A stretch of 39,099 bases of DNA from Candidatus Moraniibacteriota bacterium (GTDB lineage Bacteria; Patescibacteriota; Minisyncoccia; CAIUEV01; JAHKAQ01), in the NCBI GenBank assembly GCA_014729725.1, contig WJJL01000066.1, positions 1 to 39,099 of the forward strand, read 5' to 3'. Below, one piece after another: positions 144 to 32,386 of this stretch. Position 1 is the first letter of the stretch, and each line of letters begins with the position of its first letter. Made by a program: the position numbers and the translations under genes. The notes under the pieces are model-generated. The model ran no database searches. It saw only the letters and a list, made by a program, of their open reading frames with translations, and was not told where the DNA came from.

Positions 144-488
144 TTTTTAGTCTAAAATTTTACTGTTTTCAATTTAGCATGAATAAGATAAAATTTTTAT
201 AAAGAAAAAATGAAGGAAAAATGAAGTTTTGATGCCCTAAGTAATTTTTACCAAAACATCTTCTACCATTTTAAAAGCGTTCATCATTCATGGTAAAGCC
301 TTTGATAATGATTCTTTAAGTGTTTTGGTTGAACAACTTGGAAAATCAATTGGGATTTCTGAAATAAAAAATTTGAAAATTTAAAAAAATTTTAAAACTT
401 GGTTATTATTGAGTTATAAAAATCTTACTTTTAATTAATGGAAAATAAGTAATTTTGAATATTCAAATAATTTATATCAAAAATAATT
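144..488. other. Intergenic region with a short open remnant
   Basis: This is AT-rich spacer between the leftward lipoprotein and the rightward HEAT-like gene. On the plus strand 241-383 is open with no ATG start. It reads ...KAFIIHGKAFDNDSLSVLVE... and then stops. The KAFIIHG piece resembles the first strand of the TIR-like nucleotide-binding family (usually K-V-F-I-V-H-G-H-D), so it may be a gene scrap. No convincing promoter, RNA or terminator was seen. Confidence 0.3.
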
Positions 489-1085
489 ATGACAATAGAA
501 AAAACTAGAGATTTAAACACTATTAAAGAATGTTTTGAGGTAATTTTAAATAGCGATAAAGAAAATAGCCGTCTAGCCGCTCGTGAGGTGCGAAAAATTT
601 TATATGGTTCAAAAAACAATAAGAACAAGTATAAAGATATCAAGGTAATTATGAAGAATGCGCCCGAGACTTATGCTGGAATTTCTGAAAACTGGCGTGA
701 GGAGAATTTTGTAATGGCGATTTCTGTTATCCATTTTTTGCGTGATAGAAAGGAAAATCCAGATTCTCTCTTTCCTTGGCTTTTTGAGTTATTGAAACAC
801 CCAAATGGCAAAGTTCGTTACGCCGCAGTGAAAATGTTCGAGAATGAATTGGGTCCATTGACTGTTCATATTCGTTTTCCCAATGATAAATATCGTCAAT
901 CGAAAGCCAAGCGTTCTAATGAGATTTTAAAAGCTTTGGTTATATCTTTGCAAGGATTGTTAAATATTTTATGGGAGGAAAAGTATGAAAAATATGAATA
1001 TATAAGGGATTTACCGGCAAGTCCCTATAAATCCGTTCAAATGGTTTTCGGGTCTATAGAGGAGTATTGTGGTAGGAAATATTAA
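489..1085 (+). CDS. Hypothetical protein, HEAT-like helical repeats
   Basis: This is a 198-residue protein of unknown function. The middle (about 95-125) reads LFPWLFELLKHPNGKVRYAA, the usual look of a HEAT or armadillo-type helix pair (hydrophobic helix, short loop with Asn-Gly, then V-R-x-A-A). The whole protein is predicted to be helical, charged and soluble, with no signal peptide or membrane segment. HEAT-like proteins usually bind other proteins or nucleic acids, but nothing here names the partner. The start at 489 follows an AT-rich leader without a Shine-Dalgarno site. It stands alone on the plus strand between leftward genes. Confidence 0.65.
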   Translation: MTIEKTRDLNTIKECFEVILNSDKENSRLAAREVRKILYGSKNNKNKYKDIKVIMKNAPETYAGISENWREENFVMAISVIHFLRDRKENPDSLFPWLFELLKHPNGKVRYAAVKMFENELGPLTVHIRFPNDKYRQSKAKRSNEILKALVISLQGLLNILWEEKYEKYEYIRDLPASPYKSVQMVFGSIEEYCGRKY

Positions 1086-1102
1086 AATCGGTTTTTTTGA
1101 TT

Positions 1103-1285
1103 TTATTTTTGGGTTTTGTTAATTAGATCATAGGCCAAACTTGCTAAAACAATATAATGAATTGCAAGATTTTTATCAATTTTTTTTGCAACTGTGTGTG
1201 ACTTTTCGTTTCTTAAAAATTGAATTGTAATTTGAACATGGGCAAAAAAATTTATTTGCCTGATTATTCGAAATCTCCCTATTAC
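1103..1285 (-). pseudogene. Possible remnant of a gene 3' end
   Basis: This is an open stretch of about 60 codons on the minus strand without a usable start. Its translation looks protein-like (FAHVQITIQFLRNEKSHTV, then an alternating hydrophobic tail ending IHYIVLASLAYDLIN). An in-frame TAA lies directly upstream. It could be the C-terminal scrap of a lost gene, but I do not recognise the family. It fills most of the gap between the HEAT-like gene and the Tat-exported protein. Base composition is no different from its neighbours, so chance remains possible. Confidence 0.25.
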
Positions 1286-1590
1286 TTAGCGAGCAGCTAG
1301 TGGTTAACATCAAATATAGGACAGTAAATATTTTTTTGTCATTCTAATTTATTCAAAAATTACGGATTATTTAATGGATTTTTTATAAAAATTTATATTA
1401 AAAACGCCTCCTAAACACTCCTTATTTTAAAACCTACGCTGTAAAAATATTTTCTTTTGTACCTGCTGGACCTGTAACCGCCACCTCAACTCCATCAATA
1501 GAAAAAGAAGGATCATTCCATTTCCATTTTGCCCCCTGAACACTTAAAATATCGCGAATCGTAATTTTGCTTGTATCGGAATAAGTAAGT

Positions 1591-3930
1591 TTATTTTTTA
1601 ATTTTTTTAAAATTGTTAAATATGTACCTTCTTCTCCCCCCCCAAGTTAATTTCCCATAATTACTCAAAGTTATAAAAGCTTTGGGTCTGGCTTTTATTC
1701 CCTTTTCTTCTAATTTATCATAAAGTCTTTCCCTAAAATCATAAGCAAGACAACTTGTAGTTAAAAAAGACATTTTCTTGATATTTACTTCTCCTGCTTT
1801 TTGCATGGAATCTGCAAGCCGATCCACTTCATACAATGAGCAATCATTTAATTTATAGCTTGGCGCCAATGAAATTCTATTACGAAGACCGTGAGCATCA
1901 ATAAATATGGTTGTGGGTTCTCTAACATTAGCTATTGCTTGATCTATATGATCAAAATTTAAATTATCACCTTCTTTTATATCCAATCCCTTAACTGTTA
2001 AAGCTATATTTTCTTTTTCACCGGATGCTTTATAATATAGGTCAAAAAAATCTTTTTGATCAAATGGTAGACATCTTTCTGTTTCTCCCCAGATACCAAA
2101 TAATTTGGTATCTGGCCCGATAATTTCCCAATCCCAGTTATTCTTTAAAATATTCAATAACCTGTCGGCCTCTTTTCCATATAGATTTTTATCTTCCTGG
2201 GCACCTATATTTCTATAAACCGCTTTGGCCATGGATATCGCATCCATATAAGTCATGTTTTCTTTTGTCATATTTTTTTGTATTATTTCCTGAAAACTTT
2301 CACTAAAAAAAATCTCTTTTAAAAAAACATGAGCAGGCGGTTCACCTAAATGGGGAGCATGATCAGTGTTACCGATTTCTAATCTTCTTTCATAATTAAT
2401 CAAAGCAATCATTTTATCAAAATATTCTTCATCAATTGGAAAATCTTCATCCTTGATCTCTTTTTGTAAAAAATTTTGGGCTTCTACTTCATCTTCTTGG
2501 CTAATTTCAAAAAGATGAGGCTTTAAGCGGTTATTATAAAAATCTTCTCCAAGATAAGTACTAATTTTCTCTTTATTTTTAATTATTTCCACCGGATAAC
2601 CATCAATTGCGTTAAATATTGTCCTTTTTATATCGAAATTAACAAATTCTTTACTCTTCCTATTATCATTTCCTCTTAAAACATGTTCAGTAAACATTAG
2701 TAAGACTTTAAGCTGATTTTCTATCGGATCTTTTTCCTTATCATCTCCCTTTTCACCTTCCTCCTCTTTACTTTCAATGCTGTATCCGTTCTCTTTAAGA
2801 AAAGGAACAATAATATGCAAAAATCCAATAATATTATGAGGATTCCTTTTTACCCCCATTAAAGAATCTTCTAAAATTCGACTCAATTCTTTTTGGTCAA
2901 AATATTGCTTTATGAAATTAAGATTTTGAAAAAACAAAGCTTGTTGGTAAGAAATCACAGAAGGCCTGGGTAATTGATTTAATCCTTCTATACATCCTTG
3001 CATTTCTGATTTTGATAAAAAACCATCTAAAACCTGAAAAACTTTCTTATTTTCTTTACACAATTCTCTTTCAAGAAATTTTGAACAAAAAAATACAAAA
3101 TATCTTCTTTCAACAGATTCTTCTAAAGATTTTATATTTTTATAGCATTCGTCAGGACTGTTTCTTATTAACCTGGCAATTGTTAATTCATATTCCCAAT
3201 CATTTAATACATTTTTTAATTTATCCAGATTTTTTAAAGCAACTTCGGGGTGATGAAAACTAAATAGATAAAGAATATCCGCATATTCTTTGCGGCCATA
3301 GGAGTGCTTTGTATTGGAATCAAGGATTATTTCTAAAGTTTTTTCCCCTGCCTTTGGGATAGATTGTTCTTGCCGATCAAAAACCCAAGGCATATTTTCA
3401 TAAATAAATTGCACACATGAAGAGTAAACATTTTTTTCTATCTTCTCTGAAAAATAACCGGTTTTAGCTATAAAAATATTGGAAATTTCTTCCCGCGCTT
3501 TATTTTTCAATTTCAATTCTCGATTAACATCATCCTCTAAAATATGTTCGTATTTTTCCTTGTTTCTTTGAGTGATTTGAATTTTAGGATTTTGAAAATG
3601 GTTTTTAAATATTTGATTTATGTCTTTCTTTGTCAAGTTAAATTTTTCCTTATCAATATTTTCAAAACTTTCTATTGAATCTTTGGTAAAAGCCAAATTA
3701 ACTAATTGTTTTTTCTCCATATCACTTAAACCCTTTTCCTGATTGAAATCAAAAGATTCAAAAAAATCAACCACATCGGTTTCGATTATGTGTTTGTATT
3801 CCTCGAATTTTGGATTTCCTTTTTTCTCCGGTCTTTTTTCGGAAAATGAAGGAATTGACAAACCTGCTGTTGCCGCACATGCAACTGCTCCCATTTTTAA
3901 AAAATCTCTACGGCTAAATTCTTTTTGCAT
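1591..3930 (-). CDS. Large Tat-exported protein with caspase-like C-terminal domain
   Basis: The 779-residue protein starts with a twin-arginine signal: SRRDFLKMG at residues 6-14, then an alanine-rich hydrophobic segment. It is therefore expected to be folded before export across the membrane. Residues 35-650 are helical and charged, and I recognise no domain there. The C-terminal part has strand-like FIDAHG (His about 680) and, 46 residues later, FLTTSCLA (Cys about 726). This His-Gly / Cys layout is that of clan CD peptidases (caspase, clostripain, CHAT families), so a caspase-like peptidase is a reasonable inference but not proven. The frame ends 14 codons after a G8 run (1636-1643). With one G fewer the protein would continue for 66 residues to a TAG at 1434. 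It follows the coiled-coil gene at 4005 after 74 bases and may share its transcript. Confidence 0.6.
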   Translation of the reverse strand: MQKEFSRRDFLKMGAVACAATAGLSIPSFSEKRPEKKGNPKFEEYKHIIETDVVDFFESFDFNQEKGLSDMEKKQLVNLAFTKDSIESFENIDKEKFNLTKKDINQIFKNHFQNPKIQITQRNKEKYEHILEDDVNRELKLKNKAREEISNIFIAKTGYFSEKIEKNVYSSCVQFIYENMPWVFDRQEQSIPKAGEKTLEIILDSNTKHSYGRKEYADILYLFSFHHPEVALKNLDKLKNVLNDWEYELTIARLIRNSPDECYKNIKSLEESVERRYFVFFCSKFLERELCKENKKVFQVLDGFLSKSEMQGCIEGLNQLPRPSVISYQQALFFQNLNFIKQYFDQKELSRILEDSLMGVKRNPHNIIGFLHIIVPFLKENGYSIESKEEEGEKGDDKEKDPIENQLKVLLMFTEHVLRGNDNRKSKEFVNFDIKRTIFNAIDGYPVEIIKNKEKISTYLGEDFYNNRLKPHLFEISQEDEVEAQNFLQKEIKDEDFPIDEEYFDKMIALINYERRLEIGNTDHAPHLGEPPAHVFLKEIFFSESFQEIIQKNMTKENMTYMDAISMAKAVYRNIGAQEDKNLYGKEADRLLNILKNNWDWEIIGPDTKLFGIWGETERCLPFDQKDFFDLYYKASGEKENIALTVKGLDIKEGDNLNFDHIDQAIANVREPTTIFIDAHGLRNRISLAPSYKLNDCSLYEVDRLADSMQKAGEVNIKKMSFLTTSCLAYDFRERLYDKLEEKGIKARPKAFITLSNYGKLTWGGRRRYIFNNFKKIKK

Positions 3931-4004: not shown

Positions 4005-4772
4005 TTATTGTTTTTGATCGGTTTTTTCCATGTTGCGATCATTTGTATCTTGAATATCATCTCTTTGGTCCAAATCACCCTGATCTTGATATCCATAAAT
4101 CAGCTTAAAAGCCCAGCCAAAAATTGAAAATTGCTCCTCATTTTCTTTAATAAATAATTCCAACTGCTGCTGCTCTGTTTGAGAAGCTTTGATTTGTTGT
4201 TTGATTTGCTTTTGAAGTTCTTCATCGGTCGTCATTTCCAAAGTTTTTTCCAATTTTCGAATTTGATTCCTGTTTTGCACCAAAGCTTTTCTTAATTGAC
4301 CAAGATTCTTATAATCCGCCCCCCATAAAAGAGTTTTTAGACCTCCTCTTTGTTCTTGTTTTTTTATGGATTCTTCAACCTCCTCCTTTATCTGCTCCTC
4401 ATCTTCCACTATTTCTTGAATGACTTTTTTTGATTGCTCTTGCTTTTGTTTTTGAGAAATTTGTTTTAAATTATCAATCATTTTTTCCTTATTTTGGCTA
4501 TAGGCTTTAGCTGGATTTGTTTTGTAATTTTTTTCACCTGGTTGATTTTGATTTTTGTTTTTTTCTTTTTTCTCTTGTCTTTGTTGATTTTTTTTACTTT
4601 TGCCTTTTTCTTCCCGGTTATTTTTATTTTTTTTGCTCAATAAGTCCTGTTCTTGCAAAGATTGGGCTTGTATTTCCTGAAGCCTAAACTGTCCATAAAC
4701 TTCATAAATCAATAGCCCCGCAATAAAAATAACGGCCACAGAAATTAAGAAAACTTTTCCTTTGATTTTCAT
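4005..4772 (-). CDS. Membrane-anchored Lys/Gln/Glu-rich coiled-coil protein
   Basis: This 255-residue hypothetical protein has a single N-terminal membrane segment (about residues 7-25) after MKIKGK. A long, highly charged low-complexity region rich in Lys, Gln and Asn follows (30-100). Next come a predicted coiled coil (about 90-145 and 160-215) and a short hydrophobic patch (FGWAFKLIYGY). It probably sits in the cytoplasmic membrane with the charged part outside or at the surface. No enzymatic motif is visible. It lies 74 bases upstream of the Tat-exported protein on the same strand, so the two may be an envelope-related pair. A TTGAAT element with a weak -10 lies just upstream of the start. 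Confidence 0.6.
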   Translation of the reverse strand: MKIKGKVFLISVAVIFIAGLLIYEVYGQFRLQEIQAQSLQEQDLLSKKNKNNREEKGKSKKNQQRQEKKEKNKNQNQPGEKNYKTNPAKAYSQNKEKMIDNLKQISQKQKQEQSKKVIQEIVEDEEQIKEEVEESIKKQEQRGGLKTLLWGADYKNLGQLRKALVQNRNQIRKLEKTLEMTTDEELQKQIKQQIKASQTEQQQLELFIKENEEQFSIFGWAFKLIYGYQDQGDLDQRDDIQDTNDRNMEKTDQKQ

Positions 4773-7397: not shown

Positions 7398-9101
7398 TTA
7401 AGATCTCTTCTTCTTTTTTTTTCTATTAATCCCCCAAATCATTTTGCGCCCCAATTTAGTTTCCAAAAACTCCAAAACATTTCTGGTAATCATTACCGCG
7501 GTAAACATACTTAATAAAACCCCGATTAAAAGAGTGGTGGCAAAACCCTTTACCACTCCGGTGCCAAAAAATATTAAAACAATGCAGGTTATAATAGTGG
7601 AAACATTTCCGTCTCTAATCGATGACCAGGCTTTTTTAAAACCATTCTCCAAAGCCTCTTTTAAGGGTTTTCCCTGTCTTATTTCTTCTTTAATTCTCTC
7701 AAAAATCAAAATATTGGCATCCACCGCCAACCCCAAAGATAAAATAAAACCAGCAATCCCTGAAAGGGTTAAGGTTATGCCTAAAATTTTAAAAACCGAA
7801 ACCATCATTAAAGCGTAAATCCCTAAAGCAAAAATAGCCACTGCCCCAAAAATCAAATAAAACACCAACATAAAAGCGCAAACCAAAATCAATCCCAAAC
7901 CTCCGGCTTCCAAACTTTTATTTAAGGATTCTTGTCCCAAGCTGGCGCCCACATTTTCCTGACTTACTAATTCTATGGGAATGGGTAAGGCTCCGGCATT
8001 TAAGTTTTTAGCCATTTCCTGAGCTTCCTTAAGATTTTGAAAACCGGTAAGCTCAGCCGTTCCATCAGGAATTACAGTTTGCACCGTGGGGTTGGAAATC
8101 ATCATTTCATCTAAAAATATCGGAACCTTCTTGCCTAAATTCCGTTCCGTAATTTCCCTAAAAAGTTTGGTGCCCTGGCTATCAAATTTTAAAATTACCA
8201 CCGGCTCGTTACTCATATCTCTTGTCCCTGCCTGAGCGCTTTCCAAATACTTTCCTGTAAGCTTGGTTTTTTTATAAGGCATTCCAAAATCCTCTTTTCG
8301 TTCTTCGCTAAAAGTTTTGAAAAATATATGGCTTAACTTTACTTGTTCTTGATCCCCCTGGTCCTTTTTTTCGATTTTTTTTAAAATATGAAGGCCGATT
8401 TTAGATTTAACAAGTTCGGGCCAAACCGAGCCCACTTCAAATTCTTCGCTAAATACAATATCTTCCAATTCTTTGGAGCCAAACATTTTTTCAAGCTGGC
8501 CTTTTTTTACAAACCCCAAATCCCCTCCCTGATCTTTGGTTGTAGGATCCTGAGAAACTTCTTTGGCAGTTTCTTCAAAGTTCTGGCCGTCTTTTATTAA
8601 CCCTAAAGTCTTTTGAGCGTTTTTTTCAATTTGTTGGTTAAGTAGCTTAAATTGCTGTTTTTCCTCCTCAGTTAAAGCGTAATCCTCTTGGGTCTTTTCT
8701 TCTCTAAAATCCAAGGTGGGTGTTTTGCCAATCATTTCAATAGCCTCTCCAACATCCTTTACTCCGGCCAAATCCACAATTAAACGATACTGATCCCCTG
8801 ATTTGTTGGTTACAATCTGCGGTTCGGAAATACCGTAAGCGTTAACTCTTCGCTCAATTATATCCCGAGCACCGCTCAGACTCTCCATTATATTGTCCTG
8901 TTTAACTTCAGAAACATCAGCCTTATAAACCAAGTGAGCTCCGCCTTTCAAATCAAGACCCAGATTGATTTTAAGATCCCTTAAAGTTTTACCTATGTTT
9001 TTGCCAAAAACAGAAAAATCCGGCATAACCGGAGAAGCAATAGCAGCGGAGACCACCAATAAAATAATTATCAAAATAAAATTGTAGGAACTTTTTTTCA
9101 T
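7398..9101 (-). CDS. secD: SecD with an inserted parvulin-like domain
   Basis: This is the protein-export membrane protein SecD, which uses the proton gradient to help SecYEG translocate proteins. It is 567 residues, longer than a compact SecD. Visible parts are an N-terminal membrane helix (8-24), the GLDLKGG signature (48-54), the P1 base up to about 135, and a C-terminal five-helix bundle (about 398-555) with the AVDANILIFERIKEE motif. Between 141 and 265 lies an insertion that looks like a PpiC/parvulin rotamase: FEETAKEVSQDP, GGDLGFVKKGQ, then GLHILKKI. The first strand of that fold (VKLSHIFFK) occurs after, not before, the rest. No secF is found next to it; the HAD gene lies downstream. 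The gene is separate from the ribosomal block. Confidence 0.9.
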   Translation of the reverse strand: MKKSSYNFILIIILLVVSAAIASPVMPDFSVFGKNIGKTLRDLKINLGLDLKGGAHLVYKADVSEVKQDNIMESLSGARDIIERRVNAYGISEPQIVTNKSGDQYRLIVDLAGVKDVGEAIEMIGKTPTLDFREEKTQEDYALTEEEKQQFKLLNQQIEKNAQKTLGLIKDGQNFEETAKEVSQDPTTKDQGGDLGFVKKGQLEKMFGSKELEDIVFSEEFEVGSVWPELVKSKIGLHILKKIEKKDQGDQEQVKLSHIFFKTFSEERKEDFGMPYKKTKLTGKYLESAQAGTRDMSNEPVVILKFDSQGTKLFREITERNLGKKVPIFLDEMMISNPTVQTVIPDGTAELTGFQNLKEAQEMAKNLNAGALPIPIELVSQENVGASLGQESLNKSLEAGGLGLILVCAFMLVFYLIFGAVAIFALGIYALMMVSVFKILGITLTLSGIAGFILSLGLAVDANILIFERIKEEIRQGKPLKEALENGFKKAWSSIRDGNVSTIITCIVLIFFGTGVVKGFATTLLIGVLLSMFTAVMITRNVLEFLETKLGRKMIWGINRKKKKKRS

Positions 9102-22374: not shown

Positions 22375-24474
22375 TTAAACTTTTTTGTTTTTTTCCCAAA
22401 AATCCTCTAAAATATTGGCGGTTTGAGCGCAGAAAACATCAAAAAAATAAAGATCTTGAGTGGAAAAAGCCTCTTTTTTTCTAAATCCAAAAAATAAACA
22501 CCCGGACAATTCTCCCTTGGAAATTAAAGGCAAAAGGATAAATTGTTTGAGTTTATCCTGATTACAAAACATTTTCAAAGAATAATCAGCGGAAAACCCT
22601 TGAATTCTTACCTTGTTTTTTACAAAATCCTTTAAATAATCAGGAGTTTTGGGTTTGATTAAAAAATAGCTGGGGATATTATCATTCTCATTTTTCACCG
22701 GCCTTTCTCTAATAAGTTGAATGAATTTTTTATTCTCTTTATCAAATTGATAAATAGCACAGTAATCAGCTCCGGATATTTCATAAGCCGAAGTTAAAAT
22801 AAACTTATACACCTTTTTCTTGTTTTTGCTTTCATCTACTTTTAAATTCAATAATATAGCAAGTTTTCTATTTATCACCCCCAAATGCTTATAAGACTCC
22901 AACAATCTTTTCTCAGATTTTCTTTGCTCGCTAATGTCGGTTACTATTAAAATCATCCCTATAATCCGACCGGCTTTATCTTTCTTAAAGTTCCAGTCAA
23001 ATCTAAGTTCCATTGATTCCTTTTTTTGAGTCTTAAAGCTTGAAAAAAAACTTTTAGGATTGAACTTTTTATCAAAAATATTTTGGATATTTAATTTTAA
23101 TTCCGTTTTTATTCTTTCGCTTTGAGCCATTTGCCAAAGTTTTTTAGAAATACAGCTTTGTTTGGATTTAAGTTTTAATAATTCCAAATAACGATCATTG
23201 CAAAACATAATCCTTCCTTTTTTGTTTATTTCAACTATTCCATAAGGAATAGCTTCAATAAGTTCGCGGTATTTTTTGTTTGATTTTTCCAGCATAAACT
23301 GGGCTTTTTTTCGAGCGCTTATATCTTCCATAAGGGCTTCCACTCCAATCATCTGGTTTTTGTTTTTTTCGTCATACAATGGCTTTATGTGATAACTAAA
23401 ATAAATTTTTTTACCCCATTTTGAAGTATAAGGTCTTTGACCAATTACGGGCTTGTGAGTTTTAATGCATTTTTTAAAATCCTGAGAAATTCCGGCTTTT
23501 ACCAAAAACGGGAAAGTAAGGATATTTATTTTTTTAGTTTCCTTAGCTGAAGGAGAACCCAAAATATTTAACAATTTAGTGTTAACCTCCATTATCCTGC
23601 CCTTTAAATCAACTGAGATAATACCAATGGGAGCGTTCTCCATCAACATTCTATATTTTTTTTCGCTTTCCATAAGATCCTTAAGAATCTGTTTTCTGTC
23701 GGTAATATCCAATATTACCCCTACCAATCCTTTAATTTTGCCTTTGGCGTCTCTAAAAACCGCCTTATTAAAAATAACATCATGGTTTTTCCGATCAGCA
23801 AATTGCACTTTTGATTCATAAACTTGCACTCCGCCTTTTTTGATTAGATCCAAATCTTTTTTATGATAAACTTCAGCTAATTTTCTGGGTATTCTTTTAG
23901 CAAAATCAAAAACGGTTTTTCCCTTAATATTGTTTCTGTCGGAATTTAAAATTCTATCAGCAAATACTTGATTGCAACCTAAATAACGCCCTTTTTCATC
24001 TTTATAAAAAATGGGGCTGGGGATGGTATCGATTAAAATTTCCAAAAATTTTTTTTGATCCTTAATTTCCTCAACAGCTCTTTCTTTTTCAGTAATATCC
24101 CTGCCTCTGGCTTGAATTTCTATCAGATTGCCTTTTTTATCAAATTTGGGAAAACTAACCCATTCAATCCAAATATCTTCTTTGGTTTTGCTTTGAAATC
24201 TGTCTTTGCAAATCACAAAATCTTTGGTTTTTTTAAGATTTTTGATAAAATTTGAGAATTCTTTTTTTTGGTACTTCTTATTAAAATCAAGTAGTTTTTT
24301 CCCCAATAAATCATGTTTTTGTTTAGTAAAAAGTTTAGCGTACCTTGAGTTAATAAAAGTTATAGTTGAATCCGGCAGATAGTGACAAACAAATTGGCTT
24401 TTACTTTGAATAAGATTTTTTTGATTATTGCCGTTTCGATTTGTTTCTAAAAAAACATTTTTAACAAAATTCAT
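22375..24474 (-). CDS. Orphan sensory protein with four PAS domains and a GAF domain
   Basis: This is a 699-residue soluble protein. Four PAS domains can be read: about 25-135 (YLPDSTITFINSRYAKLF), 145-260 (TIPSPIFYKDEKGRYLGCNQ), 268-385 (ENAPIGIISVDLKGRIMEVN) and 396-515 (EAIPYGIVEINKKGRIMFCN). Each has the usual D-I-T/S dimer end (for example GRDITEKER, ILDITDRKQ). A GAF-type domain (about 530-690) ends the protein. No histidine kinase, GGDEF, EAL, phosphatase or DNA-binding output follows, and there is no membrane segment. It therefore senses a small molecule or redox state but must signal through another protein. Its own promoter lies at 24502-24530. The next gene downstream is tuf. Confidence 0.85.
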   Translation of the reverse strand: MNFVKNVFLETNRNGNNQKNLIQSKSQFVCHYLPDSTITFINSRYAKLFTKQKHDLLGKKLLDFNKKYQKKEFSNFIKNLKKTKDFVICKDRFQSKTKEDIWIEWVSFPKFDKKGNLIEIQARGRDITEKERAVEEIKDQKKFLEILIDTIPSPIFYKDEKGRYLGCNQVFADRILNSDRNNIKGKTVFDFAKRIPRKLAEVYHKKDLDLIKKGGVQVYESKVQFADRKNHDVIFNKAVFRDAKGKIKGLVGVILDITDRKQILKDLMESEKKYRMLMENAPIGIISVDLKGRIMEVNTKLLNILGSPSAKETKKINILTFPFLVKAGISQDFKKCIKTHKPVIGQRPYTSKWGKKIYFSYHIKPLYDEKNKNQMIGVEALMEDISARKKAQFMLEKSNKKYRELIEAIPYGIVEINKKGRIMFCNDRYLELLKLKSKQSCISKKLWQMAQSERIKTELKLNIQNIFDKKFNPKSFFSSFKTQKKESMELRFDWNFKKDKAGRIIGMILIVTDISEQRKSEKRLLESYKHLGVINRKLAILLNLKVDESKNKKKVYKFILTSAYEISGADYCAIYQFDKENKKFIQLIRERPVKNENDNIPSYFLIKPKTPDYLKDFVKNKVRIQGFSADYSLKMFCNQDKLKQFILLPLISKGELSGCLFFGFRKKEAFSTQDLYFFDVFCAQTANILEDFWEKNKKV

Positions 24475-31861: not shown

Positions 31862-32386
31862 TGGTGAAATTAAAATATTAAAGTTTATAAAAATTGCGAT
31901 AATTAATTATTTTTATTGAGATTTTTCAATAAACCTCTTGCAAGATAAATTTTCGTTGTAAAATTTTTAGATTTTGTGATAAATTTTTTAAATAATTCTT
32001 AAAATCTAGCCATAGCTACAATGATAAAATTTTTTAAAAATTTAGCCAAGAGATTAAAGTCCTAATAAATTAATTTATTTTGTAAGAGTTTTAATATTAA
32101 CAAACAGTCTCGAGCTTGACAAATAAAAACAGAAGTGAGTTTGCTAAAAATTATATCCAATTCAAATTAATCTTTATGATAAACCAAAAAACTAAATAAT
32201 AAAACTTTATTACCCCCCCCCCCTTTTTTTTTCGTATCTTTTTTCAACTGGTTATATGTTTTGTTTACAATCAATTTAAGCAAAAATTTTTCTTTTTTTA
32301 TCAGATTTGTTCTCTATTTAAAATAACTGTACTTAGGTTAAATAAAAAAGCTTATTCATAGAATTTTAATTATCCGATATTTTTTA
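31862..32386. other. Long spacer between Nudix and MazG-like genes
   Basis: This 525-base AT-rich stretch has no gene I can support. The only striking feature is an 11-base C run directly followed by a 9-base T run (about 32213-32232). A TTGACA on the plus strand near 32115 lacks a matching -10. TTGAAA-N17-TTAATT (minus strand, near 31902-31930) is a weak possible promoter for the MazG-like gene. Confidence 0.45.
32213..32232. repeat. C11-T9 homopolymer tract
   Basis: A run of 11 C followed by 9 T sits in non-coding DNA. GC-homopolymers of this length are rare in such AT-rich DNA and are prone to slippage. It could be a length-variable site or a sequencing or assembly weak point. Confidence 0.7.

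Follow-up and report, generated by a model that had tools for sequence, protein, structure and literature searches.

A rare clan CD-like His/Cys protein family in Patescibacteria, including a frame-changed member with a twin-arginine signal in a genome without detected TatA or TatC

The closest described relatives of the protein analyzed here are the C14 peptidases, represented by metacaspase-like proteins and by the orthocaspases, which have p20 only. In orthocaspases, p20 is usually followed by additional domains (PMC5756287). C13 (legumain) and the proteins covered by the NCBIfam model caspase_w_EACC1 are likewise of clan CD type. True C14 proteins with secretion signals are present in other genomes of the class studied here, and our literature search for caspases in Patescibacteria turned up only papers on the gut microbiota. 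The second system of reference is the Tat export pathway. Within the CPR, it is known from several classes, and there only in some of the members (PMC9166423). Small genomes typically lack tatC (PMC3827258).

The window, the whole stretch of 39,099 nucleotides that was analyzed, constitutes an entire contig (C56) of a 1.14 Mb genome that is 94.7% complete. The same contig encodes the ribosomal proteins L27 and S3 and EF-Tu, which makes contamination by a stray contig unlikely. A gene near one end had been singled out from the sequence alone, at positions 1700-3930, as encoding a very large Tat substrate of about 780-830 residues with a caspase-like His/Cys pair. Our analysis confirmed this observation, with corrections to the extent of the gene (Table 1). 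The upper end was correct, but the reading frame extends further at the lower end, and the strand, which had not been given, is minus. The open reading frame measures 779 residues, and about 830 when it is read across a frame change; the earlier size range probably arose because the C-terminus continues in another frame past a run of eight G. With middling confidence, we regard the gene as a damaged, most likely relic, representative of a small and as yet undescribed family of exported clan CD-like cysteine peptidases.

Table 1. Coordinates of the gene, its features, and the adjacent upstream gene in the window.
Feature	Position	Strand	Description or basis
Open reading frame	1591..3930	-	779 aa (ATG at 3930): twin-arginine signal, helical region, caspase-like domain shortened by frame change
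Twin-arginine signal, residues 4-25, SRRDFLKMGAVACAATAGLS	3856..3921	-	Pfam TAT_signal 8.3e-6; TIGR01409 above cut-off
Residues 37-590, without known family, probably all helical (putative recruiting arm)	2161..3822	-	No family match; single-sequence model
Caspase-like (clan CD-like) domain, residues 600-765	1636..2133	-	Conserved in four members; hhalign to C14 domains
His680, putative catalytic His (FIDAHG)	1891..1893	-	Family-invariant; aligned to C14 catalytic His
Cys727, putative catalytic Cys (FLTTSC)	1750..1752	-	Family-invariant; aligned to C14 catalytic Cys
Eight-G run, site of the family frame change	1636..1643	-	Translation downstream of the open reading frame
Conserved C-terminus of the domain in the other frame, through the stop codon	1434..1643	-	Family profile match 1437-1649, E 1.6e-15
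Gene upstream, possible partner; 255 aa with a membrane segment at the N-terminus and a long coiled coil	4005..4772	-	Same strand; its end lies 74 bases upstream of the ATG

The family is very rare, comprising four genes in three genomes, that is, the window copy and three distant homologues. A homologue of 932 residues, from another genus of the same taxonomic family (genome G001), was the sole match among 55 relatives. A two-sequence profile searched against 384 genomes of the class recovered an intact paralogue of 1024 residues in the source genome (G000:C32 5126-8200, E = 2.5e-12), as well as a homologue in another order (genome G354, 948 residues from the listed start, E = 1.4e-24). No further members were detected in 380 genomes of the phylum or in 131 genomes of the order to which G354 belongs, and public collections of contigs, viruses, phages, and plasmids yielded no homologues (phages and plasmids by tblastn). 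In Smith-Waterman comparisons of the window domain with the three homologues, the z-scores ranged from 15 to 23. The N-terminal regions could be aligned only between the window copy and the paralogue from its own genome (z = 7.1).

Both motifs that had drawn attention to the gene, FIDAHG and FLTTSC, were found with the 46-residue offset originally given, placing H680 and C727 47 residues apart. A loose "hydrophobic-HG ... hydrophobic-C" pattern occurred in 27 of 5000 shuffled sequences, and thus the pair by itself departs only mildly from chance; conservation is what makes it significant. The four family sequences share 12 invariant columns out of 211, including those of H680, G681, and C727. 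The His-Gly and the Cys follow in the same order as in clan CD peptidases, at a His-Cys spacing of 44-54 residues across the four members, in agreement with the earlier proposal that the spacing fits this clan. The His resides in DAHG, NAHG, DMHG, or SGHG, and the Cys in TSC, DTC, ESC, or LAC. The variation in the residues preceding the Cys (TTSC, IDTC, AESC, GLAC), together with the retention in only one of the four members of the Asp that usually lies two residues before the Cys in C14, might point to a pseudo-peptidase using a caspase-like fold for binding instead of cleavage. We consider this quite improbable, as the His, Gly, and Cys are invariant despite an identity to the window protein of only 22-28%, suggesting selection for the dyad.

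Profile comparisons support the clan CD affinity of the domain well at the sequence level. For comparison, we took eight genuine C14 domains encoded within the class studied here, one of which matches PDB metacaspases (E = 1e-14). In hhalign, the four-member family profile scored 41.1 against these domains (P = 3.4e-5), with His aligned on His, Cys on Cys, and a corresponding strand-helix order around them. The controls scored far lower vs the C14 set. The maximum was 20.6 among 200 column shuffles and 19.6 among 12 unrelated single proteins, which were mostly alpha/beta, and reversing the profile gave 16.4. The family profile devoid of the window row still scored 39.8. The window sequence on its own scored 18.0, which is not above background, and it is therefore assigned to clan CD through its homology to the three remaining members.

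The similarity to C14 is nevertheless distant. Pfam Peptidase_C14 (PF00656) matched nothing in the source genome, in the G001 genome, or in any family member. The domain is located at the C-terminus, behind 500-800 other residues, and the Asp-x-Cys motif is not kept in the family. The clan CD-like His/Cys domain of the original prediction is upheld by homology. By the Pfam model, the family does not belong to C14. The other clan CD-type models yielded weak matches to single members, both below the curated cut-offs (Peptidase_C13 to one homologue, E = 0.0056; caspase_w_EACC1, E = 0.0026), and the window protein itself matched neither. A single-sequence AlphaFold2 model of the caspase-like domain had a pLDDT of 41, too low for a fold search, and a profile search of solved structures returned two weak matches, both to unrelated proteins.

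The region between the signal and the domain was originally described as some 600 residues without recognizable similarity. Consistently, the roughly 550 residues from 40 to 590 showed no match with a meaningful score in Pfam, NCBIfam, PADLOC, or PDB sequences. An NCBIfam "sliding clamp" match to residues 70-143 was rejected, since its E-value of 0.002 corresponds to 17.5 bits vs a cut-off of 239. A single-sequence AlphaFold2 model contains only helices from residue 37 to 590, with poor confidence (pLDDT 42). Among the PADLOC models for anti-phage defence, the window protein had no match and one family member had a chance-level match to Csm2.

The N-terminus of the window protein, MQKEFSRRDFLKMGAVACAATAGL, carries the canonical SRRDFLK signal typical of Tat-exported proteins, as originally recognized. 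It exceeds the cut-offs of both Pfam TAT_signal and TIGR01409 (21.4 bits vs 16.7), and a Tat motif within the first 35 residues appeared in 11 of 20,000 shuffles. A lipoprotein reading of AVAC was rejected upon inspection, because the hydrophobic stretch from the last basic residue to the Cys is too short. In contrast to genuine Tat substrates, the window protein is encoded in a genome with no detected translocase. The search for tatA and tatC elsewhere in the genome, which had been proposed as a check, found neither TatC nor TatA (controls positive in 11 of 14 genomes). TatC was detected in none of the nine genomes searched in the order of the source organism, the source genome included, and exceeded the cut-off in only two of 55 relatives. 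These absences fit the published surveys (PMC9166423, PMC3827258). Thus, the protein does not qualify as a Tat substrate in this organism, although a Tat system might in principle lie in the part of the genome that is missing from the 94.7% complete assembly. The suggestion that it is exported pre-folded to act on neighbours fared no better: such export has no known mechanism in the source organism, and the window copy, with its frameshift inside the conserved domain, may make no active enzyme.

All four family members bear a basic and then a hydrophobic segment towards the N-terminus, so that export remains plausible for the family at large. In the paralogue from the same genome and in the G001 homologue, the frames are uninterrupted and there is no RR signal; a basic stretch precedes a hydrophobic stretch, whose hydrophobicity is weak in the paralogue. 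The G354 homologue contains a twin-arginine segment, ERRAFLRGVVAIVGSYAL (L009 7765-7873, minus strand), in a genome that is 98% complete and lacks TatC; a TAA codon separates this segment from the only upstream in-frame ATG. Accordingly, both members with RR signals, the only two known, are interrupted, and both members without them are uninterrupted. This pattern, which rests on very few genes, suits a loss of Tat followed by decay of its substrates. Outside the family, a second SRRDFLK twin-arginine N-terminus was observed in the same TatC-less source genome (L040; G000:C52, about 22744; locus 455-1584, minus strand). It sits on an ORF of 122 residues that is followed by an ORF of 239 residues in another frame.

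The family frame of the window gene shifts at the eight-G run, and the conserved C-terminus continues in a different frame. The family profile, one of whose four rows was supplied by reading through this same stretch, places the conserved C-terminus at 1437-1649 (E = 1.6e-15). The 779-residue ORF is consequently missing about 65 conserved last residues, an invariant Trp among them. As the frame is open for 765 codons ahead of the break and the remainder is still recognizable, either the decay is very recent or the break is an error. The latter is the main rival to the relic reading: a homopolymer base-calling or assembly error would conceal an intact, active, exported caspase-like peptidase of about 830 residues, whose twin-arginine signal would be read by Sec. 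The break falls exactly on the G run, and apart from it the two frames are open and conserved. Sec components are present (a SecD-type protein in the window). However, the two other clear coding runs of eight G in the assembly, in GatA and in an ORF of 894 residues, both keep the frame, and the G354 relative has an independent interruption near its signal. On balance, we judge an error unlikely, yet a serious contender.

G runs are classic slippage sites, and an eight-G run in a gene of 30% GC, exactly where the frame changes, could act as a switch. The population would then contain in-frame and out-of-frame versions, turning the catalytic domain on and off by phase variation, or the domain would be reached by slippage. 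This is very improbable. The source genome contains 14 runs of at least eight G, which are mostly intergenic, and none of the others shows a clear frame change. Furthermore, the numbers of G runs in relatives vary widely around a similar level, and the homologues of the window gene have no eight-G run. Phase variation on a genome-wide scale was rejected given the mostly intergenic location of the runs and their similar numbers in relatives. One of the 14 is a run of eleven C (G on the minus strand) at 32213-32223 of the window, with no long ORF across it. A broader proposal, that some Tat-less Patescibacteria target large caspase-like surface proteins by functional twin-arginine signals through a Tat-independent or unrecognized route, with G-run switching of the catalytic domain, appears to us very improbable as well.

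Under the preferred reading of the window gene as a relic, an intact family member would be anchored or exported by means of the basic and hydrophobic segment near its N-terminus. Its several hundred helical residues might serve as a recruiting arm, and the C-terminal caspase-like alpha/beta domain would use a His/Cys dyad to cleave peptide bonds, possibly in a surface protein or a protein of a neighbouring cell. The window copy would have been targeted by its twin-arginine signal, for which no Tat translocase was detected in the genome, and, having lost its frame at the eight-G run inside the catalytic domain, it most likely no longer works. It is most likely a left-over from a Tat-dependent past, with the intact paralogue now doing the job. 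The family adds rare, undescribed, large, and apparently surface-bound caspase-like proteins to bacteria presumed to live on other cells or close by. In addition, it provides two concrete cases in which a twin-arginine signal has been left in a genome where no Tat machinery is detectable, and in both the gene is interrupted. The window and G354 genes thereby offer a small test case for the fate of Tat substrates after a reduced genome loses its translocase.

The gene directly upstream of the intact paralogue (L008:8218-9750, minus strand) encodes a secreted protein with a right-handed beta-helix, which also has a coiled coil and, at its C-terminus, a membrane segment. About 120 residues of its C-terminal region align colinearly, with few gaps, to the C-terminal region of the product of the window upstream gene (score 91). 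This score was equalled by 23 of 1000 local shuffles that kept the coiled-coil composition, and a partner module common to the two upstream genes is only suggested by the sequences. Elsewhere in the window, a minus-strand gene at 22375-24474 encodes a protein of four PAS domains and one GAF domain, in which neither a kinase nor a cyclase domain was detected. The SecD-type protein (7398-9101, minus strand) carries, between the first SecD domain and the P1 head, a PPIase domain of the parvulin type (Rotamase, residues 155-246), and may be an export subunit that incorporates its own chaperone.
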